A stretch of 18,954 nucleotides of DNA from Candidatus Hydrogenedentota bacterium (GTDB lineage: Bacteria; UBA8481; J006), in assembly GCA_003697085.1 (NCBI GenBank), contig RFFU01000054.1, forward strand, positions 1-18,954. Reading direction: 5' to 3'. The notes under the pieces were generated by a model, which did no database searches, was not told the origin of the DNA, and saw only the letters and a list, made by a program, of their open reading frames with translations. A program made the position numbers and the translations under genes. Of this stretch, positions 12,640 through 18,760 are shown piece after piece (positions within the stretch are counted from its first letter, which is position 1; each line of letters opens with the position of its first letter).

Positions 12640-13269
12640 ATGAGGTATCGAGTTCGATGGAGCGGAGTGGCGGGAACGGTGCTTCTCTTTGTGGGGTTGA
12701 CGGGGTGTTTCGCGGTTCAGAGCGATCTGGATCAAACAGCGATGGGTTCACAGTACTTCGTTGTGGGTCACGGCGATTATTTTGCTCCGGCGGAGCGGGA
12801 GACGGGAGGCGGGGTTTCGCGAGCGGTTGCGGTCATTCATCCCGTGGGGGGGAGTGCGGTCGAGGGGACCGTGAGTTTTGAAAGGAAAGTGAATGGGATT
12901 TTGGTGAAGGGAAGGATCGAGGGGTTGGAGCCAGGGGAACACGGATTTCACATCCACGAATTCGGGGATTGCAGCGGGCCGAGCGGGAAGACGGCCGGCG
13001 GCCATTTCAATCCGACGGCGGAGCGACACGGTGCTCCGGAGGATGTCGAGCGACACATCGGTGATCTGGGAAACATCGTGGCGGACGAGGCGGGGGTTGC
13101 GGAGTTCGAGATTATGGACCGTCGAATCCGCCTCAACGGCCCTCATTCGATCGTTGGTCGTGCGGTTGTGATTCATCGCGGACGCGATGATCTGACGAGC
13201 CAGCCGTCGGGAGCGGCGGGGCCTCGCGTCGGTTGCGGCGTCGTCGGGATTGCACGGTCCGGCGAATGA
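12640..13269 (+). CDS. sodC: Lipoprotein Cu/Zn superoxide dismutase
   Basis: A 209-residue protein. A basic start and hydrophobic stretch lead to the lipobox LTGC, so Cys23 is the likely lipidated residue and the enzyme is exported. The SOD domain is complete: HGFHIHEFGDC (His104, His106 for Cu), GGHFNPT (bridging His122), His130, ERHIGDLGN (His139, Asp142 for Zn), GRAVVIHRGRDDL (His179 for Cu) and GAAGPRVGCGVVG. Cys111 and Cys199 would form the conserved disulfide. It dismutates superoxide outside the cytoplasm. I prefer the ATG at 12640 because it gives a proper lipoprotein signal; the open frame extends 55 codons upstream without protein-like sequence. The gene stands alone on the plus strand, divergent from tig. 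Confidence 0.93.
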   Translation: MRYRVRWSGVAGTVLLFVGLTGCFAVQSDLDQTAMGSQYFVVGHGDYFAPAERETGGGVSRAVAVIHPVGGSAVEGTVSFERKVNGILVKGRIEGLEPGEHGFHIHEFGDCSGPSGKTAGGHFNPTAERHGAPEDVERHIGDLGNIVADEAGVAEFEIMDRRIRLNGPHSIVGRAVVIHRGRDDLTSQPSGAAGPRVGCGVVGIARSGE

Positions 13270-13304
13270 GAAAAGAGTCGGCTTTTATGGGGGATGGTTG
13301 AAAC

Positions 13305-13611
13305 GTGGCACCCGGATCCTCGACGAGAAAACGGGCTCGAAGCATCCGGAATGCTTTCGAGGAGAATCTTTTTGTCGACCAATCGTCCGTCAAAATAGCG
13401 TACGAGTATTCTTCCGGCGCCGACGTCATCCTGTATCACGGTGATTGTCTGGAGATATTACGAACGATTCCTGACGAGGTTGTACCGGAATATCTTCACA
13501 TAGCCGAGCAGAGAATCAATTTGGCATCCCAAGGACTTTTGAGGATCCGCCCGAGGAATCGACCGATTTATGAGCCGCCAAAAGGAAAAGAGGAAGAAAA
13601 GGAGATCGCGA
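13305..13611 (+). pseudogene. DNA methyltransferase remnant with an internal in-frame deletion
   Basis: The frame from GTG 13305 reads as the N-terminus of a site-specific DNA methyltransferase, including DVILYHGDCLEILRTIPDE (about residues 40-58), the block that normally precedes the (D/S)PP(Y/W) catalytic motif. At about 13476-13485 it jumps directly to a typical C-terminus (PEYLHIAEQRI, then RPRNRPIYEPPKGK). The catalytic motif and the SAM-binding FxGxG region are missing, so the product cannot methylate DNA. The frame remains open beyond the expected end and into the next gene, a further sign of decay. Other methyltransferases of this kind belong to restriction-modification systems or are orphan regulators; no endonuclease gene remains here. 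The 5' limit is approximate. Confidence 0.7.
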
Positions 13612-13911
13612 ATGACGATATTCGAGAAGATCCGCCGCGCCTTGGAGCCGCTTGACCCCGTTCAGGTAATCCTCTTCGGCTCGGCGGCGCGGGGCGAAAT
13701 GGATGCGTGGAGCGATGTGGATCTCATCGTCGTCCGGCCCACGGATTTGCCGTTTCTCGATCGGGCGCGGGAGGTGACGCCGCTCTTGCGAAAGGCGCTT
13801 GGGCGAAGCGCGGACGTGCTCGTTTATACCCCCGAGGAATTTGAGGAGATGAAGGAACGCAATGTCGGCATCGTTGCGATGGCTCTGGAGGAAGGCGTTC
13901 GCGTGATATGA
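13612..13911 (+). CDS. MNT-family nucleotidyltransferase (antitoxin of an MNT/HEPN pair)
   Basis: A 99-residue minimal nucleotidyltransferase. The active-site pattern is complete: FGSAARGEMDAWSDVDL (about 22-38), that is G-S-x10-D-x-D. The downstream region follows the family (ADVLVYTPEEFEEMKER). MntA-type antitoxins transfer AMP to a tyrosine of the HEPN RNase toxin and so neutralise it. The ATG at 13612 has GGAG seven nt upstream; an earlier in-frame ATG (13570) would add a Lys/Arg-rich piece and lacks such a site. The stop overlaps the next start codon as ATGA (13908-13911), the usual coupling to a HEPN gene, but that partner is truncated. The catalytic residues look intact although the gene is now an orphan. 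Confidence 0.85.
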   Translation: MTIFEKIRRALEPLDPVQVILFGSAARGEMDAWSDVDLIVVRPTDLPFLDRAREVTPLLRKALGRSADVLVYTPEEFEEMKERNVGIVAMALEEGVRVI

Positions 13912-13970
13912 AAGGAAGTCGGGAAGAAGCCGAGCGGCTGTTGAGCGAAGTGGAGCGTCGTTTTTCCTGA
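13908..13970 (+). pseudogene. Truncated HEPN toxin start
   Basis: An ATG overlapping the MNT stop (ATGA) opens a frame of only 20 codons, MKGSREEAERLLSEV followed by ERRFS and a stop. This matches the usual start of HEPN-domain partners, which begin with a short leader, then a helix of the type REEAxRWLxxAExD. The catalytic R-x4-6-H motif and the rest of the helical bundle are absent. The frame ends 5 nt before the convergent cofE stop codon. It is best read as the stump left by a deletion. With only 20 residues, identity rests mainly on position behind an MNT gene. Confidence 0.6.
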
Positions 13971-13975
13971 AACGA

Positions 13976-14758
13976 TCAGCGGAAGAGATCCTCGCTTTTC
14001 GGGCGGACGAGGGTGACAGCGCCGTCCGAATCCAACGATGCACCGGTGCGAAACGGAAAACCTCGGATGAGAACTGCGGGAACGCGATTCGTTTTCCGCA
14101 TGAGGAGCCCCGCGGCCGCCGCCAGTTCGTCCGCGGCTGCCTGAATTGAGGCGGTCAGCGGCCGTCCGGCAAGGTCGGGTGTGCCGCGAAGATCAATGAG
14201 CGGTTCAAGTCCGGCGCAGCCGACGGCGACGTTGACAAGACCCCTTCTCCAAGGCCGACCGAACGTGTCGCTGATCAGAACAGGAAGCGGAAATCCGATC
14301 GCTTCGGCTAATTCGGCTCGAAGACGCCGCGCTTCGGCGTCCGGATCCCGCGGCAATAGGACGAGGAGATCCTTGTCGACGGAATTGGACTCGTCGACAC
14401 CGGCGTTGGCGCATACGTGACCCGAGAGATGTTCACAGATCAAAACCCCTGTCGTCTGTCCTTCGATCCATTCGGCTTTGACGACGCTCCGGCTTTCTCT
14501 CAGAATCACTTCTACCTTACGCGGATCCTTTCCGATGCGCCGCGCTAATGCAACGGCCTCCGGACCGGGCGAGATCGTTTGCAGGTCGGCCAGGTACCCC
14601 CGGGTCCGCGAAATGATCTTATGCGCAACGACGAGGATATCGCGAGGATTAATATCGGGGATGGGTTGGAGAGCGGCGGCAAGCGGCTCAACGAGCGGAT
14701 CGCCGGGATGAAAGAGCGGGAGGCCGGTGATTGGAAGAAGTGAGAGGGGGGGCGTCAC
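13976..14758 (-). CDS. cofE: Coenzyme F420-0:L-glutamate ligase CofE
   Basis: A 260-residue enzyme that adds gamma-linked glutamates to F420-0 using GTP. Family blocks are LPLFHPGDPLVEPL, DILVVAHKIISRTRG, RKVEVILRESRSVV, HVCANAGVDESNS, ISDTFGRPWRRGLVNVAVG and the C-terminal ADELAAAAGLLMRKTNRVPAVLIRG. It corresponds to the archaeal CofE or the N-terminal half of actinobacterial FbiB; the nitroreductase-like C-terminal half of FbiB is absent. I chose GTG 14758, which overlaps the cofC stop as GTGA and leaves MTPPLSLLPITGLPLF; a GTG at 14782 would add eight residues inside cofC. Last gene of the F420 operon, convergent with the toxin-antitoxin remnant. Confidence 0.95.
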   Translation of the reverse strand: MTPPLSLLPITGLPLFHPGDPLVEPLAAALQPIPDINPRDILVVAHKIISRTRGYLADLQTISPGPEAVALARRIGKDPRKVEVILRESRSVVKAEWIEGQTTGVLICEHLSGHVCANAGVDESNSVDKDLLVLLPRDPDAEARRLRAELAEAIGFPLPVLISDTFGRPWRRGLVNVAVGCAGLEPLIDLRGTPDLAGRPLTASIQAAADELAAAAGLLMRKTNRVPAVLIRGFPFRTGASLDSDGAVTLVRPKSEDLFR

Positions 14759-15429
14759 GGGGAGGGCGTCTCGTGGAACCACTCGGCGGCGGCTCTTGCG
14801 GCCGGGTGCTCGGGATGTTTTATCAAGAATTGCTCGAGATCGCGCGGGGTATCGATGTCGAGCACGAAACTACGGAGCCGCACGACCGCACAGGGTATTC
14901 CTCGTACGCTGCACTGGGTGCGGTACCCGGCGAACGAGCGTTCCCCGAATCGAAAGTGAAGAATGTCCGGCGGAGCGGTCACGACAGCGTTCGTTCCGTC
15001 GTCATCCACCGCGGGAGAGAGAAGGACGGCCGGCGGCGCGAGGGGGAAGGAAACCAGGCGTGAGAGTTCTTCGGGATCGAGCGAGGCGAGGTCGCCGGGG
15101 ACGACGATCTGTCGCGAATAGCCGTTCTCCACGACATACCGTGTCGCCTCTTCGACCGCGGCCGATTCGCCACGCGCGGTTTTTTCCCGCAGGACGGTTG
15201 CGCCGAGGGAGGAGGCGATGTTCTCGACCGTGGGTCCGTTGGTGATCACGATGAGATCGACTCCGGAGACGGATCGAATACGCCGGAGGGTTTCCTGAAG
15301 GAGCAAGAGAGCGAGCTCGCGGCGGCGTTCAGGAGAGAGAAGCGGAGCAAGCCGTGTCTTGGAATCAGAGGGCTCCTTCGCCGGAACGACAACGGCACAA
15401 GAAGAACGATTGTGACGACTCGAGTTCAT
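14755..15429 (-). CDS. cofC: 2-phospho-L-lactate (or phosphoenolpyruvate) guanylyltransferase CofC/FbiD
   Basis: A 224-residue nucleotidyltransferase of the GT-A fold. N-terminal VVVPAKEPSDSKTRLAPLL is the nucleotide-binding loop. VVPGDLASLD, DDGTNAVVTAPPDILHFRFG and VLDIDTPRDLEQF are the metal and substrate-binding blocks of CofC/FbiD. The enzyme activates 2-phospholactate, phosphoenolpyruvate or 3-phosphoglycerate with GTP to give the donor used by CofD; the sequence alone does not tell which. The ATG at 15429 overlaps the cofD stop (ATGA), and its own stop overlaps the cofE start (GTGA). These overlaps show tight coupling of the three biosynthetic genes. Confidence 0.95.
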   Translation of the reverse strand: MNSSRHNRSSCAVVVPAKEPSDSKTRLAPLLSPERRRELALLLLQETLRRIRSVSGVDLIVITNGPTVENIASSLGATVLREKTARGESAAVEEATRYVVENGYSRQIVVPGDLASLDPEELSRLVSFPLAPPAVLLSPAVDDDGTNAVVTAPPDILHFRFGERSFAGYRTQCSVRGIPCAVVRLRSFVLDIDTPRDLEQFLIKHPEHPAARAAAEWFHETPSP

Positions 15430-16436
15430 CGTCTGTCCCGTGCGGCGGATCGAGACAGGTTTCGTTCGGGGACGCGAAGGCGTTCGAGAAGAGCGAGCGC
15501 GGCCTCGGCGGCCGAGCGTTTCCGTTGAGAGGAATCCAGAATGAGGTTCGTGGAAGCAAGAACGAATTCCGAGAGTGGAGGATGCGGATCGGCGGGAAGG
15601 TCGGTTTCGTGGACGAGAATTCCGTCCGCGAGATCACGATAATAATGAGCGAGACCGGCGAGGTCGGGTTCAAGGTTCAGGGCTCGCATCATTTTATCGG
15701 AAGGTCCTTTGAGGCTTTTGCCTTCGACGAAGGGAGAGACCACGATTCGAGGCGCGGCGAGTTTGCGGATTCGGGAGCGGAGGTCGGGGATCGCGAGAAT
15801 CGGGCCGATAGAGGCGACGGGATTACTGGGCGCGTAGAAGAGGCCGCCGGCGGTTTCGAGTGCGTGGAGTGTTTCCCGGCTTGCCGTGGCCTTCGCCGCG
15901 CCGGCGTATTCGACTCCGAGGACGCGGGGCCGGCAGGCGTGGCGGACAAAATACTCTTGAAACGGAAGCGCTCCCGAATCGGTTCGAACGATCGTACGAA
16001 CAGGGTCGTTCGAGGGAGGAAGAAGGCGGCAGGGAAGACCGAGGCGTTTTGCGAGAAAAGCGGTGACCTCGGTGAGCGAATGTCCGGTGGAAAGCATCTT
16101 CTTGCGAACGATGTGGAGGGCGAGGTCGCGGTCGCCGAGTTGGAACCAGGTGTCTTCTCCCAAACGGGCGAGTTCCTCGAGGCAGTGGAAGGTTTCCGAA
16201 GCGCGGCCCCAACCTCGGCTTCGATCCACGTGTCCCGTGAGCGTGTAGAGGATGGTATCGAGATCCGGGGAGACCGGAAGCCCATGAAAGGTCTCGTCAT
16301 CGCCGGTATTCCCGATAATCGTGATGCGTTCCGCGGGGAAAATTTGGAGGAGTCCCTCGAGGAACTTGACTCCGCCGATCCCGCCGCAGAGAACGACGAT
16401 GTCGAGAGCATCTTGGGAAAGATCAGAAGACGCCAT
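15426..16436 (-). CDS. cofD: 2-phospho-L-lactate transferase CofD/FbiA
   Basis: A 336-residue enzyme joining the guanylylated donor to the deazaflavin Fo, giving F420-0 or dehydro-F420-0. Family blocks are VVLCGGIGGVKFLEGL at the N-terminus, GNTGDDETFHGLPVSPDLDT (Fo/GDP site), SNDPVRTIVRT, the strongly diagnostic PSNPVASIGPILAIP and VVSPFVEGKSLKGPSDKMM. Length fits the family (about 310-335). No strong ribosome binding site is seen before the ATG at 16436. It lies 54 nt behind the LLM oxidoreductase and overlaps cofC by 4 nt. Fo synthase (CofG/CofH or FbiC) is not in the window and must be elsewhere. Confidence 0.96.
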   Translation of the reverse strand: MASSDLSQDALDIVVLCGGIGGVKFLEGLLQIFPAERITIIGNTGDDETFHGLPVSPDLDTILYTLTGHVDRSRGWGRASETFHCLEELARLGEDTWFQLGDRDLALHIVRKKMLSTGHSLTEVTAFLAKRLGLPCRLLPPSNDPVRTIVRTDSGALPFQEYFVRHACRPRVLGVEYAGAAKATASRETLHALETAGGLFYAPSNPVASIGPILAIPDLRSRIRKLAAPRIVVSPFVEGKSLKGPSDKMMRALNLEPDLAGLAHYYRDLADGILVHETDLPADPHPPLSEFVLASTNLILDSSQRKRSAAEAALALLERLRVPERNLSRSAARDRR

Positions 16437-16490
16437 GGAGAATCTCGAAGCCGGAACCGCTCCTGCGGCTCCGTCTCCGGCTCGTTTCCT

Positions 16491-17501
16491 TCAGGAAACC
16501 GCAAAGGTGTCGATCATCAATTTCACGTCCGGCGCCATCGGATAGAGGATCGGACAGGTGCAACCGCGTTTCATGTATTCCTTGACCTTGGATCGAGCCT
16601 GTTCGGGCGTTCCGCTGGCGGAGATTCTGTCCACCAGGTCATCGGGAACGTATTGCATCGCCTTTTCGACCTGTTCCTTTGTCGCGGGCCATCCGAGAAT
16701 CGACTGAACCTTCTCGAGAACATCTTGGGGGCAGTTGGAGGCCTTGGCGATATGGGGCTGCTGGGCGAGATACTGTGTGAGGAGCCATTTGGCCTCATGG
16801 CGCGCCTTGTCCTCGTCGTGGTCGACCGAGCAGACGATCAGTTGTGGGCGGTCGAGGTCCTCGACGGAGCGCCCTGCTTTCCGCGCTCCTTTCTCCAACA
16901 GTTCCATCGCGCGGTCGTTGTATTCCGGCGGAACACAATAATTGAGAACGGCACCGTCGGCGATTTCCCCGCAGAGTTCCATCATCTTCGGGCCGGTCGC
17001 TCCGATCATCAGCGGAATGTTCCGCGGCTCACGCCGTCCGTGAACGACGTCCAGTTCGATTCCCTCGACGTTGTGAAATTCGCCGTGAAATGTGACCTTT
17101 TCCATATTCAGAAGTTTCCGCATCACGGTGATCGTTTCCCGCATCGCCGTCAGCACCTTGTGGCGCTTGATTCCGACGTTGGCCGCCAGAGGATCCCACC
17201 ACGCTCCGATCCCGCAGATGACGCGGTTGGGGGCGAGGTCGTCGAGCGTGAGGAAGGTCGCGGCGAGAAGCCCGATGTTTCGGGTCCAATTGTTGATGAC
17301 TCCGGAACCGACCTTGATTCGTTTCGTGACGGCGGCGAAGGCGGCCATCGGAACGATGGCGTCGCGAACGAGCCGGGACTCGGCCTGCCACACCGCCTCG
17401 AATCCTTTCTCCTCGGCGTACTTCGCATATTCCATTCCATCCTGAAGCGAGTGCATATCCTGAAGGTAGAGCGCCACCCGAGGGATTTCGTTTTCAGCCA
17501 C
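16491..17501 (-). CDS. LLM-class F420-dependent oxidoreductase
   Basis: A 336-residue TIM-barrel protein of the luciferase-like monooxygenase family. Recognisable blocks are [97 protein letters not shown] and the tail [17 protein letters not shown]. These closely follow the methylenetetrahydromethanopterin reductase (Mer)-like and F420-dependent branch of the family. The substrate is unknown. The GTG at 17501 ([16 protein letters not shown]) has GGAGG nine nt upstream and fits the family start better than the frame-opening codon at 17528. As first gene of the F420 operon it is most likely an F420H2-dependent reductase or F420-reducing dehydrogenase rather than an FMN enzyme. Confidence 0.92.
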
Positions 17502-17534
17502 TGGTTTGATCCTCCTTTGATTGAGCAAGTCTCG

Positions 17535-17551
17535 GCTGAACGAAGTTCAGC
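17535..17551. repeat. Perfect inverted repeat at the start of the F420 operon
   Basis: GCTGAAC (17535-17541) and GTTCAGC (17545-17551) are exact reverse complements separated by 3 nt. They lie 5 nt downstream of the -10 box on the minus strand, at or near the transcription start. The element could be an operator or a stable 5' hairpin in the operon mRNA. Confidence 0.55.
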
Positions 17552-17556
17552 AGCGA

Positions 17557-17585
17557 ATCGTATGGGAACCGAGGCGCGACTTCAA
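17557..17585 (-). promoter_or_regulatory. Sigma-70 promoter of the F420 operon
   Basis: On the minus strand TTGAAG (17585-17580), a 17-nt spacer and TACGAT (17562-17557) give a good sigma-70 promoter. Transcription would start near 17550, about 50 nt before the GTG of the LLM oxidoreductase gene. Confidence 0.6.
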
Positions 17586-17599
17586 GCGCGGAGTAGAGC

Positions 17600-17748
17600 A
17601 ATAGGAAGAAAGCAAAAAGGGAGGAAGGGAGAAGGGAGAAGGAAGAAGGCAAAAGGAAAAAGGCAGAAGGAAGAAGGAAAAGGGGGAAGGAAGAGGGGAG
17701 AAGGATAGGGAGAAGAGAGAGGGCGAAAGGGGAGAAGGGGGGAAGACC
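17600..17748 (+). repeat. Polypurine tract (degenerate GGAGAA/GGAAGAA repeats)
   Basis: About 150 nt with purines almost throughout on the plus strand, built from short variable units such as GGGAGAA, GGAAGAA, GGCAAAA and GGAAAAA, and interrupted by only a few pyrimidines. The opposite reading frames (poly Lys/Arg/Gly or Ser/Pro/Phe/Leu) are artefacts of this composition. It lies just upstream of the -35 box of the F420 operon promoter. Such tracts can form triplex DNA or bent DNA and expand or contract by slippage. Confidence 0.8.
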
Positions 17749-17765
17749 TGCAAGGAGCGCGATTC

Positions 17766-17882
17766 TTGGGAGCGCCGGCATCCCTGCCCGCAGAGATGGG
17801 GCGCAGGTTCTCCAACCTGCGGGGCGGATTGGCGTCCGCGTTGTCATTCCGAGGAGGGCGAAGCCGACGAGGAATCCCCCAG
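17766..17882. repeat. Dispersed palindromic repeat
   Basis: It contains CGCAGGTT-CTCC-AACCTGCG (17802-17821), a perfect 8-bp stem with a 4-nt loop. About 20 nt further comes TTGTCATTCCGAGGAGG followed by CGAAGCCGACGAGGAATC (17841-17876). Both resemble short non-coding repeats seen in many copies in environmental bacterial genomes, where the second yields false translations like GFLVGFALLGMT on the opposite strand, as it does here. No transposase or target-site duplication is visible. Confidence 0.6.
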
Positions 17883-17992
17883 GAGCGTCGTCCACCACCT
17901 TTTTCTCCCTCGCCCCGTTCCCCTTTCTTCCTTTTTCCTCGCTCATTCAGGTGGCTCACCGTGCACCTGTGCCTTTCCAGCCAATTTCAGCA

Positions 17993-18021
17993 TTGACAAC
18001 AACGAGAGGGATGAATATATT
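17993..18021 (+). promoter_or_regulatory. Near-consensus sigma-70 promoter of the flagellar-like gene
   Basis: TTGACA (17993-17998), a 17-nt spacer and TATATT (18016-18021), the best promoter in the window. No sigma-28 or sigma-54 flagellar box is seen. Transcription would begin near 18028, about 30 nt before the ATG. Confidence 0.75.
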
Positions 18022-18058
18022 AAAATCAGGAGAGAACCAGGAGGGCGAGGTGAATACC

Positions 18059-18760
18059 ATGGATGGTCTCAATATCGCCGCCGGATCCATACGGACGGCG
18101 GATACTTCCTTGAGCGTGACTTCCAACAACATCGCGAATATCAATACCTCCGGTTTCCGCTCTGATAATACCCAATTTCAAACCGGTCCGGGCGGGAGGG
18201 GCGTCGAGGTGGCTTCGGTGACCGAGACGAATCGACCCGGACCGGTTGTTTTAACGGGGGGGCGTCTGGATTTATCTCTGCCGGGAGATTCCTTTTTCGC
18301 CGTACGTCGATCGAGCGGTGAGTTGGCGTTCACGCGGGATGGATCGTTTCAGATCGACGCCGCGGGCCGGATAACGACGCCGAACGGTGACCTTTTGGAT
18401 CCTCAAATCACCGTTCCCGCCGGGGCGCGACAGATTTCCGTCGGCCGGGATGGGACCGTGACCGGGCTCGCGGAAGACGGGACGGAAACGACGCTGGGGC
18501 GGATCGAGCCGGTTCGTTTTCCGAATCCGCAGGGTCTGGAGAATATCGGCGGCAATCTCTTTCGTCCAACGGCCGCGTCGGGAGCAGGAACGCGAGAAAC
18601 GGGACCCGAGGTTCTGCAAGGGGCGTTGACGCTGTCGAATACGGATCTTGCGCCGGAGATGGTGAACCTGATCCGGGACGAGCGATTCACGCAGGCGAAT
18701 GCCGCAGTCGTGCGAACGGAAGACGAAAACCTCGGTACGATCCTCGATATAAAGCGATAG
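18059..18760 (+). CDS. Flagellar rod/hook family protein (FlgF/FlgG-like)
   Basis: A 233-residue protein. The N-terminus (LNIAAGSIRTADTSLSVTSNN, then IANINTSGFR) is the flagellar basal-body rod motif. The centre has the FlgE/F/G block (SLPGDSFFAVRR, FTRDGSFQIDAAGRITTPNG, VGRDGTVTG). The C-terminus (NTDLAPEMVNLIRDERFTQANAAVVRTEDENLGTIL) is the conserved C-terminal coiled coil. FlgF and FlgG build the rod and are exported by the flagellar apparatus without a cleaved signal. At 233 residues it is a little shorter than usual FlgG (about 260). The ATG at 18059 follows GAGGTG by 6 nt; GTG 18050 is an alternative. It stands alone, without other flg genes in the window, so whether it is FlgF, FlgG or a paralogue cannot be settled. 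Confidence 0.88.
   Translation: MDGLNIAAGSIRTADTSLSVTSNNIANINTSGFRSDNTQFQTGPGGRGVEVASVTETNRPGPVVLTGGRLDLSLPGDSFFAVRRSSGELAFTRDGSFQIDAAGRITTPNGDLLDPQITVPAGARQISVGRDGTVTGLAEDGTETTLGRIEPVRFPNPQGLENIGGNLFRPTAASGAGTRETGPEVLQGALTLSNTDLAPEMVNLIRDERFTQANAAVVRTEDENLGTILDIKR

Follow-up and report, generated by a model that had tools for sequence, protein, structure and literature searches.

The window analysed here, an 18,954-nt contig (RFFU01000054.1, C84 in our numbering) of a Candidatus Hydrogenedentota bacterium, carries four minus-strand genes arranged head to tail in the order LLM-cofD-cofC-cofE, which encode an LLM-class (luciferase-like) oxidoreductase and three late enzymes of F420 biosynthesis. 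From these genes and the rest of the genome, a 3.2 Mb draft in 145 contigs that is 94.6% complete, we found that the bacterium probably builds F420 by a route skipping the usual reductase step. We give a probability of roughly 55% to the reading that the four genes would supply the late steps of an F420 pathway that is complete and resident in this genome, joined by a separately acquired LLM gene and working without a reductase. This is a known pathway in a variant form and not a new kind of system.

F420 genes and the nitroreductase superfamily in the genome

The three cof products score above the cut-offs of their NCBIfam equivalogs, with 295 bits for CofD to TIGR01819 (cut-off 257), 137 bits for CofC to TIGR03552 (cut-off 105) and 238 bits for CofE to TIGR01916 (cut-off 181), all far above chance expectation. 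An earlier note, written from the sequence letters, had described a four-gene F420 operon with 4-nt overlaps between the cof genes and a CofE lacking the nitroreductase half of FbiB. The strand, the coordinates and the family scores bear out this description, both overlaps are present and CofE is a single-domain ligase (Table 1).

The early branch lies on another contig, C103, where CofH (517 bits) and CofG (469 bits), both above their cut-offs, are adjacent and directly preceded by a second LLM enzyme, LLM2 (TIGR03842, 440 bits, cut-off 295; C103:33271-34278, or L100:9272-10279). The earlier note had named a genome lacking Fo synthase genes as the case against its reading, and this genome has both. 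All five F420 biosynthesis activities (CofG, CofH, CofC, CofD and CofE) are thus encoded in one genome, together with the F420:NADP reductase Fno (TIGR01915, 220.5 bits, cut-off 149.8; C75:16275-16925). Our sample of the phylum consists of this genome (G000) and G001 of the same order; G001 contains LLM2, CofG and CofH in the matching order (LLM2 at L101:2284-3384) and, where one of its contigs ends, part of a CofD. Judging from family membership, the four-gene operon would almost certainly yield an F420-type cofactor.

In mycobacteria, phosphoenolpyruvate (PEP) is the donor and the nitroreductase half of FbiB then reduces dehydro-F420, while a stand-alone nitroreductase serves as the dehydro-F420 reductase in Thermomicrobia (PMC8764529, PMC6450877). 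The earlier note had pointed out that a PEP donor would call for a separate reductase elsewhere and had suggested looking for a stand-alone FbiB-C-like nitroreductase. A genome-wide search was made for one, and neither the draft genome nor the operon gave any match to PF00881 or TIGR03553. For the nitroreductase profile we used a cluster-only version, setting aside a version partly trained on a BluB match. PF00881 matches were present in all 14 control genomes, and each of the 63 other CofD-bearing genomes tested (14 and 49 in two scans) had at least one. The sole other CofC-bearing genome without a PF00881 match was G066. In G030, which belongs with G066 to another small phylum, the single PF00881 match is BluB (TIGR02476, 266 bits, cut-off 150) and was rejected as a dehydro-F420 reductase.

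The three genomes with no nitroreductase, or with BluB alone, make up exactly one CofC clade. Genomes free of PF00881 account for two of the three in this clade, counting G030 as having a match, and for 0/63 of the others (Fisher P = 0.0014, a guide rather than a strict test since the three clade genomes represent two lineages). In the two Anaerolineae operons scanned, cofE and cofD are separated by an FbiB-C-like nitroreductase gene, with TIGR03553 scores of 146-158 bits. Because these operons, which contain the same LLM gene, include a nitroreductase, the lack of one here is a genuine difference. Taken over the three genomes, the absence makes an F420 route without a nitroreductase step likely.

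The CofC donor pocket and competing routes

In the proposed route, CofG and CofH would make Fo, CofC would link GTP with a phosphorylated C3 acid, CofD would transfer that acid onto Fo and CofE would attach the glutamate tail. Fno would then exchange hydride between F420 and NADPH, with both LLM enzymes as likely users of the cofactor. The donor should be one that requires no later reduction, most likely 2-phospho-L-lactate or another saturated phospho-acid; a less likely variant is that dehydro-F420 made from PEP is used unreduced. There is precedent for a reductase-free route in the bacterial producers that use 3-phospho-D-glycerate (3-PG) (PMC8764529).

The predicted CofC retains the metal ligands Asp113, Asp191 and Asp193, which are invariant in 21 CofC sequences and align to those of FbiD and of the 3-PG enzyme structure 7P97. 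Its AlphaFold model (predicted local distance difference test score, pLDDT, 93) is closest to 7P97 (Z 27.3, root-mean-square deviation 1.7), followed by FbiD (Z 25.3) and archaeal CofC (Z 24.2), and the sequence matches rank similarly (77 bits to 7P97, 52 bits to FbiD). At the position of Leu92 in the PEP enzyme FbiD and Met91 in the 3-PG enzyme, this CofC has Glu88, whose spacing to the catalytic Asp equals that in 7P97. Glu88 is common to G030, G066 and a sister group from Acidobacteriota and Alphaproteobacteria, and the clade of our CofC with G030 and G066 has the motif RGE[ST]xAVE.A, whereas the LN motif or close variants occur in Chloroflexota CofC and in the mycobacterial and archaeal structures. 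Glu88 would mark a clade whose donor pocket is unlike that of any structurally solved PEP, archaeal or 3-PG enzyme. Cys95 of the 3-PG enzyme aligns with Val, and Ser162 of the Mycetohabitans enzyme, the diagnostic position, with Gly162. Ser or Thr at position 162 marks 3-PG use; because it has Gly162, our CofC is of the 2-phospholactate/PEP type by this published criterion (PMC8764529). Of these donors we lean towards 2-phospholactate or another saturated acid over PEP, although sequence alone cannot decide the matter.

Several points weigh against a reductase-free route from such a donor. A strong FbiB-C-like match (>140 bits) was found in only 4 of the 28 genomes scored, so that many comparator nitroreductases need not be dehydro-F420 reductases. 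Genomes of Acidobacteriota and Alphaproteobacteria with an E-type CofC have 1-3 nitroreductase matches, and one gene could be lost from a 145-contig draft. Gly162 also occurs in PEP producers, and CofC assays fail to separate 2-phospholactate from PEP even in vitro (PMC8764529). In addition, 7P97 as the nearest solved structure keeps a 3-PG donor open.

The strongest alternative, which we regard as possible at perhaps half the weight of the reductase-free reading, is that PEP serves as donor in the ordinary way and that a dehydro-F420 reductase with a different fold (a hypothetical 'CofX') is encoded elsewhere. PEP is the donor in characterised bacterial pathways apart from those of the 3-PG producers, Gly162 suits the PEP/2-phospholactate type, and there is an earlier proposal of a non-FbiB reductase in archaea and in some bacteria (PMC6450877). 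Against this, no candidate was found in the operon or adjoining CofG and CofH, and the LLM enzyme is an unlikely dehydro-F420 reductase because Anaerolineae have it together with a nitroreductase. It is doubtful that the CofC clade with Glu88 and Gly162 activates a C3 phospho-acid new to F420, such as 2-phosphoglycerate, which would give a new reductase-free congener. A little less probable still is an ordinary PEP route whose FbiB-C-like nitroreductase was missed by the draft assembly. The completeness and the contig number leave room for such a loss, but the gene is also missing from the two further genomes of the CofC clade (94% and 88% complete), and the chance of missing it in all three, calculated from completeness, is ~0.0004 if the gene is universal and the losses are independent, with G030 and G066 being of the same family.

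A CofC that takes 3-PG as in Mycetohabitans would also make a reductase unnecessary and would fit the nearest solved structure by both sequence and fold. We consider it improbable nonetheless, since the Ser or Thr at position 162 is replaced by Gly, Met91 by Glu and Cys95 by Val, and our CofC is not joined to 7P97 in the tree; it is Gly162 that disfavours this type in spite of the structural match.

Origin and layout of the operon

The cof genes differ in history from the LLM gene, which goes beyond the view of the earlier note. In the CofD tree, our CofD groups with those of G001, G030 and G066 (Shimodaira-Hasegawa-like approximate likelihood ratio test, SH-aLRT, 90) and lies outside the groups formed by Actinomycetota and by Chloroflexota. 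The CofC tree, likewise outside these two phyla, places our CofC in one clade with G030 and G066 (100/99), the sister of which consists of Acidobacteriota and an alphaproteobacterium (97/89), and CofE had no resolved placement. These trees, which the earlier note had proposed, agree with its suggestion of an F420 operon outside the best known producers. The LLM gene is instead nested in a Chloroflexota clade (support 99 and 100), in the company of cofC-adjacent genes from Anaerolineae. Its identity is 83% to the G030 gene and 78% to an Anaerolineales gene (67-83% across the LLM genes that adjoin cofC or belong to G030), while CofC identity is merely 29-43% between genomes whose LLM genes are 78-83% identical. 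This close identity to G030 and the nesting among Anaerolineae genes indicate that the LLM gene moved horizontally, and the operon would combine cof genes resident in the lineage with an LLM gene that travels. Contamination or recent import of the cof genes from a common producer, which the earlier note had raised and which the LLM placement and its likeness to G030 might suggest, is highly improbable given that neither CofD nor CofC is placed within Actinomycetota or Chloroflexota, that G001 has a grouping CofD and the matching LLM2-CofG-CofH order, and that the contig also holds housekeeping genes of similar GC content (cof genes 60-62%, neighbours 55-60%).

The LLM protein matches the Pfam family Bac_luciferase (PF00296, 227 bits). 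Its best NCBIfam matches are F420-dependent groups, none above its own cut-off: it scores 175 bits to Mer (TIGR03555, cut-off 348.7) and 72 bits to the F420-dependent glucose-6-phosphate dehydrogenase Fgd (TIGR03554, cut-off 420). The motifs WQAESR and GAWWDP are conserved across the subfamily, whose genes follow cofD-cofC at a dozen or more loci of Anaerolineae and Ardenticatenia. From its location beside F420 genes, the enzyme most likely uses F420 as a cofactor. We considered it as a replacement methylene-tetrahydrofolate reductase, which is unlikely because G000, G001 and G030 have a normal MetF. Many Dehalococcoidia/SAR202 loci (L013-L054) have an LLM gene after cofC as well; it belongs to a different LLM clade (~25% identity), and thus an LLM gene beside cofD-cofC arose with distinct LLM subfamilies. 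In G030 (L102:12800-14211) and G066 (L153:5103-6712), cofD-cofC is immediately preceded by a Memo gene and an AMMECR1 gene, with 55-56% identity from one genome to the other; we know of no connection between them and F420, and no look-up aimed at one was made.

Table 1 Features of the F420 operon in the window.
Feature	Position	Strand	Description	Basis
LLM-class (luciferase-like) oxidoreductase	16491..17501	-	336 aa, GTG start; subfamily without a name, nearest Mer	family matches, tree
LLM-cofD spacer	16437..16490	-	54 nt, stable hairpin	folding
cofD	15426..16436	-	phospho-acyl transferase to Fo	TIGR01819, PDB 3c3d and 6uvx matches, tree
cofD/cofC overlap	15426..15429	-	ATGA, 4 nt	sequence
cofC	14755..15429	-	guanylyltransferase	TIGR03552, PDB alignments, AlphaFold model and fold comparison
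cofC/cofE overlap	14755..14758	-	GTGA, 4 nt	sequence
cofE	13976..14758	-	F420-0:gamma-glutamyl ligase, 260 aa, single domain	TIGR01916, PDB 7uld and 2phn matches

The LLM start codon is preceded by a strong ribosome-binding site, AAAGGAGG. The earlier note had also given the LLM gene its own promoter, but a scan of the minus strand from 13000 to 18300 revealed no sigma-70-like site ahead of it. The hairpin in the LLM-cofD gap (-33 kcal/mol for 71 nt folded, z = -2.9) could lead to unequal levels of LLM and cof transcripts; it might attenuate cof transcription or hide the cofD start. For cofE, the longest open reading frame (ORF) starts at 14782, upstream of the assigned start. Next to the operon, the window contains an MntA-like nucleotidyltransferase gene (13570-13911) with a 4-nt overlap with a 20-codon ORF (13908-13970), possibly the remnant of a HEPN partner and hence of a decayed toxin-antitoxin pair. 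Elsewhere in the window, the product of 469-1230 matches DUF6901 (253 bits).

Comparison with known F420 systems

Outside mycobacteria, the reduction of dehydro-F420 is an open question, as is the standing of 2-phospholactate as a true donor in bacteria (PMC6450877, PMC8764529). A full pathway in a genome with no detectable nitroreductase-fold gene turns the donor and reductase questions into one enzyme assay. With it, a phylum sampled here by two genomes joins the F420 makers, and a conserved LLM enzyme is seen to spread apart from the adjoining cof genes.

The mycobacterial pathway of FbiD, FbiA and FbiB, which uses PEP via dehydro-F420, draws on the same enzyme families to activate the donor, transfer it and add glutamate, and FbiD also has Gly at the 3-PG diagnostic position. 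Here, by comparison, CofE is without the nitroreductase half, CofG and CofH are two distinct proteins, the genome search gave no nitroreductase and Glu88 stands for Leu92. The Mycetohabitans 3PG-F420 pathway is similar in having no reductase and in providing the nearest solved CofC structure, while its CofC has Ser162, Met91 and Cys95 in place of Gly, Glu and Val and is separate in the tree. The pathway of methanogens, where CofC, CofD and CofE use 2-phospholactate, shares the single-domain CofE, the separate CofG and CofH and the lack of a nitroreductase partner; our CofC is 22% identical to the archaeal CofC and has the LN donor-pocket motif replaced.

For the LLM enzyme, the closest named family and solved structures are those of Mer, the F420-dependent methylene-tetrahydromethanopterin reductase (144 bits to 8qq8), although it scores below the Mer cut-offs, the Mer stretch TDHYNNR is AESRLVR in LLM and the genome has an ordinary MetF. 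Compared with the Anaerolineae (Chloroflexota) operon cofE-nitroreductase-cofD-cofC-LLM, the present operon has another gene order, no nitroreductase and a CofC and CofD of another lineage, but both place an LLM gene of the same subfamily, 67-78% identical, beside cofD-cofC.

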